Shown here: positions 43,984-57,730 of the stretch, one piece after another
Layout: each line of letters opens with the position of its first letter
How positions within the stretch are numbered: position 1 is the stretch's first letter
Origin: Magnetococcales bacterium DCbin4
Lineage (GTDB): Bacteria > Pseudomonadota > Magnetococcia > Magnetococcales > UBA8363
DNA: 58,930 bases
NCBI GenBank assembly: GCA_002753735.1
Contig: PEAN01000020.1
Coordinates: 1-58,930 of the forward strand
Direction of reading: 5' to 3'
Translations under genes and position numbers: made by a program
Notes under the pieces: generated by a model
What the model was told of the DNA's origin: nothing
Database searches by the model: none
What the model saw: only the letters and a program-made list of their open reading frames with translations

Positions 43984-45342
43984 ATGGTTTGGTATACCAC
44001 CTCACTGATCCTGGTTGCCCTGGGTGTCGCCGCCTGTATCGGACCGCCCCCGCAACCAACACCGTTGCCCCCGGTGCCACCACGCTGGAGTGTCCCCTCC
44101 GCCTCCATGGAAAAGATCTCCCATGGATGGTTGCAGGATTTCGCAGCCCCCGAACTCGAAATCATGGTCGCCCAGGCCCTGCGTGACAGCCCCGACCTGC
44201 GCTCGATCCATCTGCGGATGGAAGCGGCACGGGCACGGATCCTCATCGCCGACAGTGCACGTTGGCCCCGGGTCACCCTGGATGCCGATGTCCAGCGCAG
44301 TGGGACGTCGAGCGTGCAAACAACGTCCCATGGTCTGGACACAACGGTCGCATGGGAAGTCGATCTGTGGCAACGATTGTCGCTGAACCGGCAAGGGGCC
44401 GAGGCGGACTGGCGCGCAACCGAGGCCGATGTCCGCGCTGCGCGCCTCGCCCTGGCCGCCAAGGTGGCCCGCGGATGGTTCCGGGTGGTGGAAACGGGCG
44501 GACAGATCGGCTTGGCCCAACACCATCTGGAGAACCTGCGCCGCGCCCTGACGGTCATCGAAGAACGTTACCGCATGGGCCTCGCCACCACCCTCGACCT
44601 GCGTCTGGCCCGAACCGACATCGCCCAGGGCGAAGAACGACTGGCCTCCCGGCGGATGGAACTGGATGAAGCCAAACGAACCCTGGAAACCCTGTTGGGA
44701 CGTTATCCCGAAGGGACACTGGAAGAACGATCTTCATTGCCCACCCGCTTCCGCCCCGTCCCCGCGGGATTGCCGGCGGAACTGTTGGAACGCCGCTGCG
44801 ATCTGGTCGCGGCCCGGCATCGCCTGGACGGTGCCACAACCCGTCTCGAAGAGGCTCGGCGCAACCGCCTGCCAACCCTCAAACTGACCACCACCGGCGG
44901 CTATTCCAGTCCCGAACTGCGTGACATGCTGGATTGGGACCATCTGGTATGGCGTCTGGTGGGGGGATTGACCCAACCGTTATTTCAGGGGGGACGGCTG
45001 AAGGGGGAAGAGGCACTGGCCCGGGTCGAACACCAACAGGCATGGACCGACTATGCCAAGGCGGTGTTGAATGCCTTGCGCGAAGTGGAAACCGCCCTGG
45101 CCGCCACACCCCGGCTCCAGGAACGTGAAGCGGCCCTGGAAGACCAGGTGCGCGAAGCCAACGCGGCAGTCACTGAGGCGGTCGCCCGCTATCAGGAAGG
45201 ATTGATCGGCCTCGTCACCCTGCTTGACACCCAACGCCGGGCATTCACCGCTGAAAGTTCCCGCCTGAGCGTCGCACGGGAACGGTTGGACAACCGCATC
45301 GACCTCTACCTCGCCCTGGGAGGCGATTTTGGCACCCAATAA
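43984..45342 (+). CDS. Outer-membrane efflux lipoprotein (TolC/NodT family)
   Basis: A 452-residue outer-membrane channel subunit of a tripartite efflux pump. The signal peptide has a lipobox ending at C18 (L-G-V-A-A-C), followed by a Pro-rich linker, as in NodT/OprM lipoproteins. Two long helical-repeat halves follow with typical Y-R-M-G-L-A-T-T-L-D-L and Y-Q-E-G-L-I-G-L-V-T-L-L-D marks, and L-T-Q-P-L-F-Q-G-G-R in the middle. It precedes the adaptor and RND genes but is separated from them by a 285-base, repeat-filled gap and is bracketed by inverted 55-bp repeats. Confidence 0.92.
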   Translation: MVWYTTSLILVALGVAACIGPPPQPTPLPPVPPRWSVPSASMEKISHGWLQDFAAPELEIMVAQALRDSPDLRSIHLRMEAARARILIADSARWPRVTLDADVQRSGTSSVQTTSHGLDTTVAWEVDLWQRLSLNRQGAEADWRATEADVRAARLALAAKVARGWFRVVETGGQIGLAQHHLENLRRALTVIEERYRMGLATTLDLRLARTDIAQGEERLASRRMELDEAKRTLETLLGRYPEGTLEERSSLPTRFRPVPAGLPAELLERRCDLVAARHRLDGATTRLEEARRNRLPTLKLTTTGGYSSPELRDMLDWDHLVWRLVGGLTQPLFQGGRLKGEEALARVEHQQAWTDYAKAVLNALREVETALAATPRLQEREAALEDQVREANAAVTEAVARYQEGLIGLVTLLDTQRRAFTAESSRLSVARERLDNRIDLYLALGGDFGTQ

Positions 45343-45346
45343 AAAT

Positions 45347-45401
45347 GATCAAGAAAAAAAAGGGGTCTCAAGGGATTGCCCCCAGGGTTTTGACTTTGAT
45401 C
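45347..45401 (-). repeat. 55-bp repeat, right arm bracketing tolC-like gene
   Basis: Inverted near-copy (53 of 55) of 43903-43957. It starts 4 bases after the tolC stop codon. Read on the plus strand it opens GATCAAG plus an A-run and ends TTTGATC. Confidence 0.85.
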
Positions 45402-45466: not shown

Positions 45467-45590
45467 GCAAAACCTTGGGGGACTTCGTCCCCCGAACCCC
45501 CTGTGGGGGATGGGAAAACAAACTCAAAATCAAAAAAACAAAATCAAAACCCTGGGGGCAATCCCCCAGACCCCTTTTCTTTTTTAATAA
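45467..45590. repeat. Dispersed intergenic repeat, near-complete copy
   Basis: Contains the hairpin GGGGGACTTCGTCCCCC (45477-45493), CCCCCTGTGGGGG, AAATC runs, then CCCTGGGGGCAATCCCCCAGACCCC and a T-run. Same order as the copy at 23009-23115. It lies just before the adaptor gene and would otherwise be read as a false 72-residue N-terminal extension. Confidence 0.75.
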
Positions 45591-52030: not shown

Positions 52031-52124
52031 TGATTCTTTTTTTGGGATCAAACCAAAACCCTGAAGGTAATCTCATCGACCCGATGCTCATTCCAATCAC
52101 TTTTTGAATGTCAACAGGCCCCGG
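52031..52124. repeat. Degenerate dispersed repeat at comF start
   Basis: A T-run, GGGATCAAACCAAAACCCTGAAGG and the end motif GAATGTCAACAGGCCCCGG, comparable to 9787-9808. It spans the gap between divergent methyltransferase and comF genes and reaches the assumed comF start codon. Confidence 0.5.
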
Positions 52125-52875
52125 ATTGAAGCGACTGCCAACCACATTCAGTCGAACCTTGCCACAAATCAAACCGGCACTGCACGGACTTTTGGATCTG
52201 TTGTTTCCCACGTTTTGTCCTGCCTGCGGCATTCCCGTCCCCCATCCGCAACTGTTTTGCTTCGACTGTATCCGGACCCTTCCTCCTTTGCCGGAACACC
52301 ATTGCCTTTACTGTGGCACGACCACCAGTGGACCCGTGCTGGGATGTGGTTCCTGTCTTCTGGTACCCAACCGGCCTGACCGGGTCTGTTTTCCGTTCAC
52401 CTACACCGAGCCTATCGCCAGATTGATCGTCCAATTCAAGTTCAGCGACCGGACCGAATGGGCTGCCAGCCTGATTGACCTGGCCATGGAACGGGTGGGT
52501 GATCTTTTGATCTGGGAAGATTTGGAACTGGTCGTCCCAGTACCGCTTCATCCATTGCGTCTGGTGTGGCGTGGCTACAACCAGGCGGCGTTATTGGCGG
52601 GAGCCTTGGCACGGCGGCTTGATCGGCCCCTGGTGACAAACGGATTATATCGGATCAAGATGACCCGGCCACAGACCAGGTTGCGGCAAAAAGAGCGTCT
52701 GATCAATGTTCGTAACGCCTTTACCACCCATAACGATGTGATCGCAAACCGCACAATCCTACTGGTGGATGATGTCTTCACCACCGGTTCCACGATATGG
52801 TCTGCAACCCGTGCCTTGAAAAAGGGAGGTGCCCGGCGTGTGGTGATCTTCTGTCTGGCGCGTGTAGATCATTAG
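52108..52875 (+). CDS. comF: ComF-family phosphoribosyltransferase-like protein
   Basis: A 255-residue ComF protein. The N-terminal zinc ribbon has F-C-P-A-C-G and C-F-D-C, followed by C-L-Y-C-G. The C-terminal PRTase domain has V-V-P-V-P-L-H-P-L-R-L-V-W-R-G-Y-N-Q and the PRPP loop V-L-L-V-D-D-V-F-T-T-G-S-T. ComF members are tied to DNA uptake. The start is uncertain because ATG 52108 lies in the tail of a repeat. In relatives it is usually close to grxC and a nitrilase gene, here displaced by 3.8 kb. Confidence 0.9.
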   Translation: MSTGPGLKRLPTTFSRTLPQIKPALHGLLDLLFPTFCPACGIPVPHPQLFCFDCIRTLPPLPEHHCLYCGTTTSGPVLGCGSCLLVPNRPDRVCFPFTYTEPIARLIVQFKFSDRTEWAASLIDLAMERVGDLLIWEDLELVVPVPLHPLRLVWRGYNQAALLAGALARRLDRPLVTNGLYRIKMTRPQTRLRQKERLINVRNAFTTHNDVIANRTILLVDDVFTTGSTIWSATRALKKGGARRVVIFCLARVDH

Positions 52876-53168
52876 CGCGTATTGTTTGACATTCATGACC
52901 TTGATTTTCAATTTCTGGTTCATGTCCCCTTGACCCCGTCCTCTTTAGTGATTTCCCTGGCCATTTCCCCCTTGAAGACCAAAAAACGAAAAAGTCCCAC
53001 GAGTCACAAAACGGTGAAATCCCGAAATAATTCCAATGACATCCACCTTATATTCTGATAAAAACGCATTCACGGCGTGCCCTTCCCGTCAAGGCGTCAC
53101 GCCCACTTCCCGTCTTGGTTATGGAACCTCCCCAACAAGGCGGTACAGGCCCGGAATGAGGATTGAAC
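52876..53168. other. comF to ATPase gap with repeat end and possible promoter
   Basis: No gene. Bases 52885-52911 (TTGACATTCATGA ... TTTTCAA) are a reversed end of the dispersed repeat. ATGACA at 53036-53041 and TAAAAA 17 bp later form a weak promoter candidate for the ATPase-protease pair. This gap is the likely left junction of that insert. Confidence 0.4.
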
Positions 53169-54164
53169 ATGGCATCAGGCAACTTGCTCAGACAGCTTAT
53201 TCGATCAGGTGCGGAAGGAAACCTGGAGGCATTCAAGAAGGCTTCCGAGGATGTCATCCGAGAAGAGCGGGAAAAACATCACCATCTGCTCGCCAGCGAT
53301 CTGGAAAAAATCCTGTATGGCCGGTCCAATGTCACCAGTCAGCCATTCATCTCCCTGATCAAGCAGGTTCCAAGTGACAAGGAGCGGGGTCTTCCACTCC
53401 TCCATATCAAAGAACCCCTGCGGCGACTGGAAGATGTCATCCTTTCCGATGACAACCGATCCCTGATCGACGAGATCCTCCAGGAACATCATCGACAGGA
53501 GGTGTTGAAAAGTCATGGGCTTGCGCCAGCGGATCGCCTGCTTTTCTGTGGACCTCCCGGGTGCGGGAAGACCCTGACGGCGGAAGTCCTGGCTTCAGAA
53601 CTCGGTTTGCCATTGGCCATCGTGCGTATCGATAGTGTGGTTTCCTCCTATCTGGGAGAAACGGCCTCCAACCTGCGTCAGGTTCTGGATTTCGTGGCTT
53701 CCGTCCCCATGGTGGCTCTGTTCGACGAGTTTGACGCCCTGGCCAAGGAACGCGCCGATGCGGCGGACCATGGCGAACTGAAAAGAGTGGTCAATGCCTT
53801 CTTGCAGCTCCTCGATGCCTACAATGGAAGAAGCCTGCTCATCGCCGCCACCAATCACGAAGGCATTCTGGATGCCGCCGTTTGGCGCAGATTCGACGAG
53901 GTTCTGGTTTTCGAACTGCCCAACCTGGAACAGTTGCGAAAATTGCTGACCTGCAAACTGCGCGGTCTGCGACGGGATTTCGATGTGGACAGTAACAAGA
54001 TTACCAGCCTCTTCAAAGGGATGAGTCAGGCTGATGTGGAACGGGTTGTACGCCGTGCCGCCAAGGAGATGGTGCTGTCCGGCAAGGAGTTTCTGGACGA
54101 ACGACACATCAAATCGGCCATCCGTCGGGAAGATGCACGCCAAGCCCGGATGAAGAGGGGTTGA
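53169..54164 (+). CDS. ietA: AAA ATPase, IetA-like (defence pair)
   Basis: A 331-residue AAA+ ATPase. An N-terminal helical ~85 residues is followed by the ATPase core: Walker A G-P-P-G-C-G-K-T (128-135), Walker B L-F-D-E-F-D (184-189), sensor-1 N229 in A-A-T-N-H, and R240-R241 as the arginine-finger pair. The FtsH/spastin-like core would form a hexamer. It is 6 bases before a subtilase gene. Such a pair is known as IetAS, first linked to plasmid incompatibility and later to phage defence; the name here is inferred from pair architecture and sizes. ATG 53169 has GAGG upstream. Confidence 0.85.
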   Translation: MASGNLLRQLIRSGAEGNLEAFKKASEDVIREEREKHHHLLASDLEKILYGRSNVTSQPFISLIKQVPSDKERGLPLLHIKEPLRRLEDVILSDDNRSLIDEILQEHHRQEVLKSHGLAPADRLLFCGPPGCGKTLTAEVLASELGLPLAIVRIDSVVSSYLGETASNLRQVLDFVASVPMVALFDEFDALAKERADAADHGELKRVVNAFLQLLDAYNGRSLLIAATNHEGILDAAVWRRFDEVLVFELPNLEQLRKLLTCKLRGLRRDFDVDSNKITSLFKGMSQADVERVVRRAAKEMVLSGKEFLDERHIKSAIRREDARQARMKRG

Positions 54165-54170
54165 TGACTC

Positions 54171-56513
54171 ATGGCTGAATCCTATCCTCATCTGCCGCTG
54201 CAAAGGGAAACTCGGGTCAATGAGAAACGACCGGGCACGCCACCCAGATTTCCTGTTCCGGAAGATACACGTAGCCACGGTCGAAAATTGCAGCAATCGC
54301 TCACCCGAGCCAAAGAGCGAGCAGCCGGTGATGTGGGCGGTTTCGATGAGCGCCGATTGTTCCGCTTTTCCGTACAGAAGGGGTTCAATCCCGACGATCT
54401 GAGCAAAATTTCTCCGGAGATCGAGTTCGTCAGTCAGGAAGATGAGACGGTTGTGGTCGGTTTCGCCAGTGACACAGCCCTTGCAGAGTTTGAATCCCGA
54501 CTGGCCACCATGGCCAGCGGAAGTGACGTCACCAACAAGCAGGTCATTTATGCCCTGCGAAGCGTGGATGGATGGAGTTCTGAGGATCGCAAAGGGTGGG
54601 CGCTGAGAAAACATGGCCTTCCAGAATCGGACACCTTCCTGTTGGATGTAGAACTGTGGCCACTGGAGGATCATCGCCAGGAACGCGAACAGGAATGGGA
54701 GGCGTTCGAGAGATGGCTAACTCAGGCAGGTATCCACAAGGAGGACCAGATCAAGCAGTCCGGTTTGACGCTCTATCGGGTTCGTTGCGACGCCATCCAA
54801 GCTGAAAGGCTTCTGCGACATCGGGACGTGCGATCCGTCGATCTGCCGCCCAACTTCGGTTTGGATTATTCGCTTCTGATCCAGGATATTCAGAAGATTC
54901 CCCCCATTACGAATCCTGGTCAGAATGCGCCCGGAGTGGTGATCCTCGATAGTGGATTGGCTACGGGGCATCCTCTAATTGGGGCTGCCGTTGGTGAGTC
55001 GGATAATTTCTTGCCGAATGAATCAAGTGCCGCTGATGAACATGGCCATGGAACCCGGGTAGCAGGATTGGCGCTTTATGGAGACGTTGAAACCAGTTTG
55101 AAATCAAACCTATTTATTCCTACCCTTCGATTATTCAGCGGTCGGATTCTTGACAGAAACAAGCAAAACGCAACTGGTCTCATTGAAAAACAGATAGAAG
55201 CGGCTGTTCGGTATTTTTCAAATGAATATCAATGTCGGGTATTCAATCTCTCCGTCAACGATGACAATAAGCCCTATCTGGGCGGTCATCTGAGTGGGGT
55301 ATCTCTGACCCTGGATCACCTTGCCAGGGAACTTGGTGTTTTATTCGTGGTATCAGCAGGCAATCACAGGGTTGATGCTGATTCTCCAAAAGGGATGGAG
55401 TGGCGAGACCAATATCCCGACTATCTGTTATCTGACTCCTGGAAAATTACCGAACCTGCTCCGGCACTAAATGTTCTTACTGTAGGTGGTTTGGCTAAGC
55501 ACAACAAACCATTCACTACGACTCCAGATGAAATAGCTCTTGCCCAGCCGGGGCAACCATCTCCGTTTACCCGTCATGGACCTTCTATAGGTGGAGCGAT
55601 CAAACCCGAGTTAATCGCTCATGGTGGAAATTGGGGGATCAAAGTCCATGATATCGATGCGAGGTTACTGGAACAAAATCATGGATTGGGAGTCGCCACT
55701 TTAAACCTCCAATTTGCCCTTGGATATCCATTCAGCGAAGGCACTGGCACGAGTATGGCCGCGCCCCAGGTGGCCCATCTGGCGGCGTCCATCCTGCGGG
55801 AACATCCCGACGCCAGCGCCAGCCTGTTACGGGCGTTGCTCTGCGCCCATGCCGTCATGCCAGAAGAAAGCCAAGCCCTGATAGAACGCGACAAGGAGTT
55901 CAGAAAGGTTTGCGGCTACGGACAAGTGGATGTCACCGCGCTTCACCGCTCTCTTGAAAGCGCGGTGACTCTTATCGCCGATGGTTCCATCGAAAACAAG
56001 CGCCATCACTTTTACGAAGTTCCCATTCCAGATGAGTTTACCAGCGGTGGCCGACGTCGATTGCGGGAAATCGCCGTGGGGCTGGCCTATGCGCCCATCG
56101 TTCGTTCGACCAGAATCAAGTACCGAGCCACCCGCATCGACTTCCGACTGGTGACGGCATCAGATCTGGAACATATCACTACCATGTTCAACAAGGCCAC
56201 CGAGAAGGACGATTACGAGAACATCCCCGAGTTAAAGACCGCTACCGTTGGCCAGCAAGCCCGCAGCAAAGGCACGGTGCAGGCGGATACCTGGCGGTTC
56301 AATCAGTTCAACAAAAAATCGAGGTTGAAGAAGGATCGGCTGTTCGTCGTGGTCACCCGCAACGATTTTCCGTGGGGTGAGCCGCTTTGTGCCACCGAAG
56401 AGGATTATGCCCTGGTGGTCTGCCTGCGTGACCGGGAAAATGAAGAGGCTCGGCTTTATACTCAGGTCAGGAATCAGCTTCAGGCACGGATGCGAGGGAG
56501 GGCAAAAGTATGA
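54171..56513 (+). CDS. ietS: Subtilisin-like (S8) serine protease, IetS-like
   Basis: A 780-residue intracellular subtilase with no signal peptide. The catalytic triad is intact: D260 (V-V-I-L-D-S-G), H293 (H-G-H-G-T-R-V-A-G) and S528 (G-T-G-T-S-M-A-A-P), with oxyanion N398 in S-A-G-N. A ~245-residue N-terminal region and ~200-residue C-terminal region flank the protease domain. With the ATPase 6 bases upstream it probably forms a regulated cytoplasmic protease. G+C drops sharply in the middle (23 of 60 at 55081-55140; 25 of 60 at 55201-55260) compared with the ends (31 of 60 at 54241-54300; 40 of 60 at 55801-55860), so the catalytic part may have been exchanged separately. Confidence 0.9.
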   Translation: MAESYPHLPLQRETRVNEKRPGTPPRFPVPEDTRSHGRKLQQSLTRAKERAAGDVGGFDERRLFRFSVQKGFNPDDLSKISPEIEFVSQEDETVVVGFASDTALAEFESRLATMASGSDVTNKQVIYALRSVDGWSSEDRKGWALRKHGLPESDTFLLDVELWPLEDHRQEREQEWEAFERWLTQAGIHKEDQIKQSGLTLYRVRCDAIQAERLLRHRDVRSVDLPPNFGLDYSLLIQDIQKIPPITNPGQNAPGVVILDSGLATGHPLIGAAVGESDNFLPNESSAADEHGHGTRVAGLALYGDVETSLKSNLFIPTLRLFSGRILDRNKQNATGLIEKQIEAAVRYFSNEYQCRVFNLSVNDDNKPYLGGHLSGVSLTLDHLARELGVLFVVSAGNHRVDADSPKGMEWRDQYPDYLLSDSWKITEPAPALNVLTVGGLAKHNKPFTTTPDEIALAQPGQPSPFTRHGPSIGGAIKPELIAHGGNWGIKVHDIDARLLEQNHGLGVATLNLQFALGYPFSEGTGTSMAAPQVAHLAASILREHPDASASLLRALLCAHAVMPEESQALIERDKEFRKVCGYGQVDVTALHRSLESAVTLIADGSIENKRHHFYEVPIPDEFTSGGRRRLREIAVGLAYAPIVRSTRIKYRATRIDFRLVTASDLEHITTMFNKATEKDDYENIPELKTATVGQQARSKGTVQADTWRFNQFNKKSRLKKDRLFVVVTRNDFPWGEPLCATEEDYALVVCLRDRENEEARLYTQVRNQLQARMRGRAKV

Positions 56514-56580: not shown

Positions 56581-56628
56581 GATCAAAACCCTGGAGGCGA
56601 TTCCCGAGACCCATTTCTTTTCTTGACC
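56581..56628 (+). repeat. Degenerate dispersed repeat at right edge of ATPase-protease pair
   Basis: GATCAAAACCCTGGAGGCGATTCC, GAGACCC, a T-rich run and CTTGACC. It aligns with the 55-bp unit at 43903-43957. It marks the right junction of the comF-grxC insert. Confidence 0.65.
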
Positions 56629-56657
56629 ATTCTTTCAATATCCAAAAGGAGCATCTC

Positions 56658-56918
56658 ATGCCCAAGATTGAAATCTACTCCACCACTGTCTGCCCCTACT
56701 GTATCCGGGCCAAAATGTTATTGGACAAGAAAAAGGTTCCCTATGAGGAAATCAATCTGACCCATTATCCCGAACGACGCGATGAGATGCTCAAACGGGC
56801 CAACGGCAAAAAAACGGTTCCACAAATATTCATCAATGGCAAACATATCGGCGGTTGTGACGATATGTACGAACTGGATCAGAAAGGACAACTCGACCCC
56901 TTGCTGGTGGACAAATGA
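56658..56918 (+). CDS. grxC: Glutaredoxin 3
   Basis: An 86-residue dithiol glutaredoxin. The active site is C-P-Y-C at residues 12-15, with T-V-P-Q-I-F-I-N and G-G-C-D-D for glutathione binding. It reduces disulfides with glutathione. AAAAGGAG precedes the ATG at 56658. Its stop overlaps the hydrolase start by ATGA. Confidence 0.97.
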   Translation: MPKIEIYSTTVCPYCIRAKMLLDKKKVPYEEINLTHYPERRDEMLKRANGKKTVPQIFINGKHIGGCDDMYELDQKGQLDPLLVDK

Positions 56919-57730
56919 ATGCACCCGTTGCCATCATTCAAATGAATTCAGGTTCCAACCGATCAGACAATCTGTCTCAGGCGGGGCACCTGATGGAACA
57001 AGCGCTGGCCCAAGGAGCGGGATTGCTGGCATTGCCGGAAAATTTTTCGCACATGGGCAGCAACGAGGAGGAAAAGCGCCAGCATGCAGAAAACCCGGTC
57101 GATGGCCCATCGCTGGCATTTTTGCGTGATTTTTCCCGCCGTCACAAAGTTTGGATGGTTGGAGGCACCATTCCACTGGCCACGCCCACGGGTGAAAAGA
57201 TCACCAATACCTGTTTTGTCCTCGACGATCAGGGAGAAATCAAAGCCCGTTACGACAAGATGCATCTGTTCGACGTGGTCCTCCCACAGGATCGCGGTTA
57301 CCGGGAATCCAGCCTGGTTCACCCCGGGGACACACCCGTCGTCTGCGACACCCCCTGGGGACGGCTGGGACTGGCCATCTGTTTCGACATCCGTTTCCCG
57401 GCTCTGTTTTCCCATCTGGTCCGGCAAGGAGCGACGTTTTTCACCTTGCCCTCTGCCTTTACCGCCGTTACCGGCGCTGCACATTGGGAATTGTTGGTGC
57501 GTTGCCGGGCGGTCGAAAATTTTTGCTACCTGCTGGCCCCTGGCCAGAGCGGCCGCCACCCGGGGGGACGCATGACCCATGGCCATTCCATGATGGTGGA
57601 ACCCTGGGGCACCATCATTGCTCAATGCCCCGAAGGACCCGGGTTCGCCATCGGCCACATCGACCAGGAGCGCATCACCTCCTGCCGGCAACAGATCCCT
57701 TCATGGAAGGGAAGCAGCACCCTTCCTTAA
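56915..57730 (+). CDS. Carbon-nitrogen hydrolase (Nit1/Nit2-like)
   Basis: A 271-residue nitrilase-superfamily enzyme. The triad is E42 (L-P-E-N-F), K115 (Y-D-K-M-H-L-F-D) and C156 (A-I-C-F-D-I-R-F-P). The close match around K-M-H-L-F-D and the second F-P segment resembles Nit2 and deaminated-glutathione amidase (Nit1) types. The latter fits its coupling to grxC, since both act on glutathione-related compounds. Confidence 0.93.
   Translation: MNAPVAIIQMNSGSNRSDNLSQAGHLMEQALAQGAGLLALPENFSHMGSNEEEKRQHAENPVDGPSLAFLRDFSRRHKVWMVGGTIPLATPTGEKITNTCFVLDDQGEIKARYDKMHLFDVVLPQDRGYRESSLVHPGDTPVVCDTPWGRLGLAICFDIRFPALFSHLVRQGATFFTLPSAFTAVTGAAHWELLVRCRAVENFCYLLAPGQSGRHPGGRMTHGHSMMVEPWGTIIAQCPEGPGFAIGHIDQERITSCRQQIPSWKGSSTLP

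Follow-up and report, generated by a model that had tools for sequence, protein, structure and literature searches.

Known relatives of the system treated here are pairs of an AAA ATPase and a subtilase-type protease. The IetAS pair of plasmid pTiC58 is known from Yamamoto et al. 2009, as related in PMC5006074 and PMC8562856. SgiAT of Salmonella genomic island 1, likewise an AAA antitoxin with a subtilase toxin, works as a toxin-antitoxin system in E. coli, where SgiT is toxic and SgiA protective (PMC5006074); in a mycoplasma pair, too, the toxicity of the subtilase is neutralised by the ATPase (PMC8562856). A Pf phage carrying IetAS has been associated with phage resistance (PMC11878078), and the antiphage mechanism of IetAS has been termed unknown (PMC9958689, PMC11878078). 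Here we describe a pair of this kind, ietA and ietS, in the genome of Magnetococcales bacterium DCbin4 (G000 below), a 4.5-Mb metagenome-assembled genome with 95.9% completeness. The DNA analysed is contig C124 (PEAN01000020.1), positions 1 to 58,930, called the window throughout. Like the pTiC58 pair (sequence L086), the G000 pair consists of an AAA ATPase gene followed, nearly abutting, by an S8 protease gene with the same domains; unlike it, the G000 pair is not plasmid-borne, does not adjoin a DUF6088 gene and belongs to a set of copies with deep alternative blocks, which Ti copies lack. SgiAT differs in being island-borne and in that the role shown for it is island maintenance, and we liken it to the G000 pair by description, not by sequence.

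We consider it likely that the locus holds a horizontally acquired IetAS module, derived from a restriction-modification (RM) operon, that acts in a toxin-antitoxin-like, abortive-infection manner and whose protease has been diversified in blocks. IetAS systems and modules embedded in RM operons are both known already; what is new is the RM-operon setting and the mosaic diversification of IetS. A keyword search of the literature, which took in few subscription papers and no preprints, found no report of IetAS in RM operons or of mosaic IetS.

Both genes of the pair are intact. The Walker A (GPPGCGKT, residue 128) and Walker B (LFDEFDAL, residue 184) motifs of IetA and the catalytic residues D260, H293, N398 and S528 of IetS are all present, and ietA precedes ietS on the same strand with a 6-nt gap, in an order that is identical in homologous loci. 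Coordinates and motifs thereby confirm the initial annotation, a reading of the bare DNA, which had described an AAA+ ATPase and an intact-triad subtilase 6 bases apart. In profile searches, IetA matched PADLOC model PDLC02196 (E 1.5e-99, residues 4-325, near full length) and IetS matched PDLC02198 (E 1.7e-263, 874 bits, residues 4-779 of 780), and for both proteins these models lead other families by a wide margin; the Pfam matches are AAA for ietA (7e-29) and Peptidase_S8 for ietS (8e-37). The sequence features that define IetAS in PADLOC are all found here: model coverage, adjacency, gene order, strand, and the AAA+ and S8 motifs. The proposed IetAS identity is thus upheld, and neither protein has a non-defence ATPase or protease family as its best match.

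Two results argue against placing the pair with the characterised members of the family. The NCBIfam antiphage equivalogs IteA and IteS (NF042959, NF042956) are the best NCBIfam matches, yet their curated cut-offs are missed (255 bits against 510, and 135.8 bits against 900), and identity to the pTiC58 pair is modest, at 35% for IetA over most of its length and 30% for IetS over residues 246-617. Because the equivalog cut-offs are far from reached and this identity is low, we assign the pair, from its sequence, to an IetAS subtype distinct from those characterised and outside NCBI's experimentally anchored equivalogs.

The placement of the pair between comF and grxC-nitrilase, also given in the initial annotation, is borne out by domain matches of the flanking genes. 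The order comF-grxC-nitrilase is conserved in 28 other Magnetococcales genomes; the two genes had been called usual neighbours in alphaproteobacteria, and the conserved order holds for Magnetococcales, the lineage concerned. In every one of these 28, which are all the relatives in which both comF and grxC could be seen, the comF-grxC spacer measures 27-316 nt and lacks the pair, against 3,779 nt in G000. Because all 28 relatives carry comF and grxC without the pair, gene order identifies the pair as an insertion, as had been predicted, and not as a feature conserved at this site in all relatives. In G001, which belongs to the genus of G000, the site is empty (54 nt) and the pair lies on another contig, encoding proteins 97% (IetA) and 86% (IetS) identical to those of G000. 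The comF-grxC spacers vary in length and content among relatives; similarity of the G000 locus to other copies begins at about position 53122 and stops at the ietS stop codon (56513). The term defence island, used earlier for this locus, goes too far, as the pair by itself does not make an island.

The distribution of the pair is patchy, with a close IetA in 8 of the 48 genomes of the order. IetA of G000 is 94% identical to that of G033 and 92% identical to that of G030, which represent two other families, whereas the nitrilase of G000 is just 60% and 56% identical to theirs. Because IetA is so much more similar across families than the nitrilase is, we conclude from these identities that IetAS moved between families by horizontal transfer.

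Judging from gene neighbourhoods, close relatives of the G000 pair travel as passengers of RM operons. In three Magnetococcales (G001, locus L081; G033, L078; G003, L079), the pair lies within a type I RM operon, between hsdM and hsdS. The order in G001 and G033 is hsdM-hsdM-ietA-ietS-hsdS-Fic-hsdR, with Fic broken in G033; G003 agrees as far as hsdS and the beginning of Fic, within which its contig ends. In these embedded copies the start of hsdS overlaps the stop of ietS, and PADLOC recognises in the operons a type I methyltransferase, a specificity subunit and a restriction enzyme, the Fic gene being identified as SoFic. The hsdM-hsdS gap of this two-hsdM operon behaves, by its observed contents, as a cassette slot. 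It is empty, with hsdS right after hsdM, in G061, G284, G283, G315 and two plasmids; it is taken by a gene with a helix-turn-helix and/or M78 domain in G039 (L119) and G028 (L120), and after hsdM in G108 (L139); and it holds an unrelated 423-aa gene in G069 (L138). The slot genes score as HigA antitoxin (G039) and PD-Lambda-2_B (G039, G108). A small open reading frame accompanies the HigA-type slot gene.

Type III operons carry the module as well. Close IetAS homologues stand directly before mod in Marinobacter (L019) and in IMG/VR contig L149 (3300025270_001884), and in Pusillimonas (L018) IetAS precedes a type III mod with a small gene between. At these three loci, variable genes lie between mod and res (RhuM/PDC-S05, PDC-S02 and a 397-aa gene), and at two of them a Snf2-type helicase gene and a 223-aa gene (DUF4391 in L149) lie upstream.

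That defence modules can lie inside type I RM operons is already known, DarTG2 of enteropathogenic E. coli (PMC12255303) and TgvAB of Vibrio cholerae VPI-2 (PMC11411939) being examples; Payne et al., as cited there, belong to the same theme. DarTG2 is likewise a toxin-antitoxin defence module, but it has a toxin of another family, it lies between hsdS and hsdR rather than between hsdM and hsdS, and the G000 locus, unlike that of DarTG2, has no RM genes. TgvAB, like the embedded IetAS copies, is a defence system of two genes lodged in a type I RM operon, and it is active alone; it differs in being a modification-dependent nuclease (GmrSD-like), not a protease.

There are no RM genes at the locus of the G000 pair, and a search of the G000 genome at E 1e-80 returned no relative of the hsdM of the embedding operons. 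Because a putative hsdM 3'-end remnant precedes ietA, the G000 copy probably descends from a type I-embedded copy whose RM genes have since been lost. By blastn, the 48 nt ahead of ietA (53122-53168) share 79% identity with the hsdM-ietA junction of G001 (E 7e-6), and the open frame VMEPPQQGGTGPE with its stop codon in G000 corresponds to SVEPPQQGLTGPE with its stop codon in G001. Over twelve codons, 7 of the 9 differences between the two leaders fall at third codon positions (p ~0.008), a bias that a segment with a mostly coding past would be expected to show. Longer traces accompany other solo copies: that of G030 has 205 nt of hsdM similarity (1e-23), and that of G020 has 148 nt of hsdM upstream (4e-26) and 34 nt of the hsdS start downstream (2e-9). 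After ietS in G000 there is no hsdS and no hsdS remnant.

Several observations weigh against descent from an embedded copy. The hsdM-like remnant is short and could be the module's own leader, taken up by hsdM when the module entered; in two such RM operons without IetAS, hsdM ends in a different, shorter tail, so the tail may come with the module; the solo copies of G004 and G031 are without such remnants; and most of the non-Magnetococcales homologues examined are solo, outside RM operons. On these grounds, the G000 pair could be an ordinary solo IetAS with a 48-nt leader of its own, the RM embedding being a separate event elsewhere in which the module, on entering hsdM, took the place of its tail. 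We regard this as unlikely, since the open frame of the G000 leader matches the hsdM tail and differs from it mainly at third positions, and since the solo copies of G030 and G020 retain such extended hsdM similarity, joined in G020 by the start of hsdS.

The second distinguishing feature of these copies is the structure of IetS. In a windowed comparison (80-nt windows) of the five closest copies (G000, G001, G003, G030 and G033), ietA is 71-99% identical along its whole length, whereas ietS falls into blocks. Over the N-terminal block, identity is 74-91% between G000 and G030, 46-79% between G000 and G001, and 86-94% between G001 and G033. The protease-core block of G000 is 97% identical to that of G001 and 64-65% identical to those of G003, G033 and G030, which share an allele of their own (87-90% among themselves); the core also has a lower G+C content (0.41-0.52 in 54969-55718). 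The segment around S528 is constant by comparison, its lowest pair identity (71%) being reached at the 3' end. Further on, over 56049-56229 of the C-terminal block, G003 is 54-64% identical to the others, which are 79-99% identical to one another.

All four combinations of the two N-terminal and two core alleles occur, in G000, G001, G030 and G033, a pattern that simple descent does not yield. Approximately unbiased (AU) tests reject a common tree, giving 6e-126 for the N data on the P tree, 5e-12 for the N data on the ietA tree and 5e-39 for the P data on the ietA tree. Between G000 and G001, the synonymous divergence dS is 0.40 in ietA and 0.37 over IetS residues 520-604; in the core block it is 0.064, which implies a later exchange of the core. 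Purifying selection on IetA is strong, with a ratio of nonsynonymous to synonymous divergence (dN/dS) of 0.03-0.07 among the Magnetococcales copies. We read Magnetococcales IetS, on these alignments and trees, as a mosaic of blocks exchanged by intragenic recombination beside a near-constant IetA.

All Magnetococcales copies compared come from draft assemblies, largely metagenome-assembled, and those of G001 and G004 share, by record name, a sample series, which counts against a mosaic and would suit an assembly artefact in which contigs are chimeras of co-occurring strains; uneven substitution rates could also be invoked. We hold either to be highly improbable, given that the shared blocks are 86-97% identical rather than 100%, synonymous changes included, that the incongruence spans genomes of three families, and that rate differences cannot yield all four combinations of N-terminal and core alleles. 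Recombination between real alleles thus remains our reading of the blocks. In the IetAS of Ti plasmids and of Pseudomonas plasmids we found no deep alternative blocks, Ti copies having mild recombination tracts only, so the deep mosaic is not general to IetAS. Milder local exchange is seen in another lineage, where L025 and L027 are 95-100% identical in ietA and about 77-95% identical over IetS residues 100-380. E. coli genomes gave few matches of useful length and were not used for the mosaic test. Shuffling of target-recognition domains in HsdS is a familiar case in which variable domains of a defence protein are exchanged between constant anchors; in IetS, by comparison, three of the four catalytic-site residues of the protease lie within the exchanged core.

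A housekeeping or stress protease system for proteostasis, without a defence role, is scarcely credible: protein quality control commonly employs pairs of an AAA+ ATPase and a protease, and IetA also scores against Cdc48/PAN-type models, but the IetA and IetS models fit best by a wide margin, the pair is patchy, has moved between families and is found in RM operons, and the RM slot is shared with a HigA-type antitoxin gene.

We propose that G000 received, through horizontal transfer, a complete and probably functional IetAS module, now a solo pair between comF and grxC. By analogy with experiments on IetAS and SgiAT homologues, IetS would act as a cytoplasmic subtilase harmful to the cell, and IetA would be the ATPase that keeps it in check; phage infection or some other disturbance would free IetS and give abortive-infection or addiction-like protection. 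Close relatives of the module ride RM operons, in the slot between hsdM and hsdS of type I systems or just before mod in type III systems, and the G000 copy would stem from a type I-embedded ancestor, its RM genes gone and the hsdM 3' end left before ietA. Block-wise intragenic recombination has diversified IetS in three places, the N-terminal region, the protease core and the C-terminal block; IetA and a few anchor segments of IetS have remained constant. The constant parts of IetS would then hold the contacts with IetA, and the exchanged parts would set sensing or cutting.

In three of the seven full-length Magnetococcales copies, ietS is broken and ietA intact, by frameshifts in G030 (L022) and G004 (L026) and by a stop in G031 (L007). 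This is suggestive of toxin loss; chance, ietS being more than twice as long, or assembly error could also produce it. On Pseudomonas aeruginosa plasmid pF061_1 (L097), an IS30-family transposase gene splits ietS, and ietA is intact.

PrrC, the anticodon nuclease of type Ic RM operons, is an RNase that the RM complex keeps inactive. As a cell-damaging effector encoded in an RM operon, it suggests a guard role; it differs from IetAS in having no separate ATPase antitoxin. A tentative and rather doubtful extension of our proposal is that this IetAS subtype is a dedicated RM companion, a protease tripwire that would fire when RM is disabled or lost, whose specificity would be reset by exchanged blocks under the control of one near-invariant IetA, and of which the G000 solo copy would be a version now independent of RM. 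The N-terminal LDYF type occurs in 3 of 3 RM-embedded copies and also in solo G031, numbers too few for a correlation.

The natural chimaeras of IetS show which of its parts can be exchanged without a change in IetA, and so provide a map for regions that contact IetA, receive the trigger or set the substrate; the swapped blocks point to where specificity may lie. With its recurrent placement in RM operons of types I and III, IetAS joins the known RM passengers as a protease-based toxin-antitoxin module, and the guard hypothesis, by which IetS would be set off once the RM complex is lost or inhibited, becomes testable. Solo copies with remnants illustrate how RM passengers gain independence. 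The features of the locus are listed in the table.

Table. Features of the ietAS locus and its flanks, in window coordinates.
Feature	Position	Strand	Remarks
comF	52108..52875	+	left flank of insertion; DZR_2 and phosphoribosyltransferase domains
Probable hsdM 3'-end remnant	53118..53159	+	open frame VMEPPQQGGTGPE and stop, 9 nt separate it from the ietA ATG
ietA	53169..54164	+	AAA+ ATPase, 331 aa; ATG start matches all homologues
ietS	54171..56513	+	S8 subtilase, 780 aa; PADLOC and Pfam matches, motifs located
IetS N-terminal exchange block, ~residues 7-130	54189..54560	+	allele common to G000 and G030
IetS protease-core exchange block, ~residues 205-517	54783..55721	+	includes D260, H293, N398; allele common to G000 and G001
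IetS constant segment, residues 520-604	55728..55982	+	includes catalytic Ser528; mostly 80-96%, all pairs of five copies
IetS C-terminal exchange block, ~residues 605-705	55983..56285	+	G003 has a different allele
IetS constant C-terminal segment, residues 727-780	56349..56510	+	84-99%, all pairs of five copies
ATGA at ietS stop	56510..56513	+	in RM-embedded copies this overlap starts hsdS; similarity ends at 56513
Dispersed repeat copy, right-hand side	56583..56638	+	~47 copies in genome G000
grxC (glutaredoxin)	56655..56918	+	right flank of insertion
Nitrilase gene	56915..57730		follows grxC

Repeat remnants had been reported at both junctions of the insertion, and only the right-hand one is a repeat. 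Its family has two further copies in the window, at 45341-45393 and 45543-45583. For the left-hand stretch (52885-52911), a search of the window that tolerated up to 3 mismatches found no second copy, and genome searches with the surrounding DNA gave no meaningful copy. Because the repeat exists on the right side alone, the suggested acquisition by recombination between repeat copies is unsupported, and we reject it as stated. The dispersed repeat of G000 is about 40-57 nt long and often occurs as inverted pairs a few hundred bases apart.

AlphaFold models of the two proteins were poor (pLDDT 57.5 for IetA and 40.9 for IetS), and no block was mapped on a structure. IetS residues ~155-224 resemble a ferredoxin-type, prodomain-like unit (Foldseek probability 1.0, E 0.03), a match that we did not use as evidence. 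A DUF6088 gene, which may be a regulator, lies upstream of the pair on Ti plasmids and also on a Pseudomonadaceae plasmid (L086, L096, L100).

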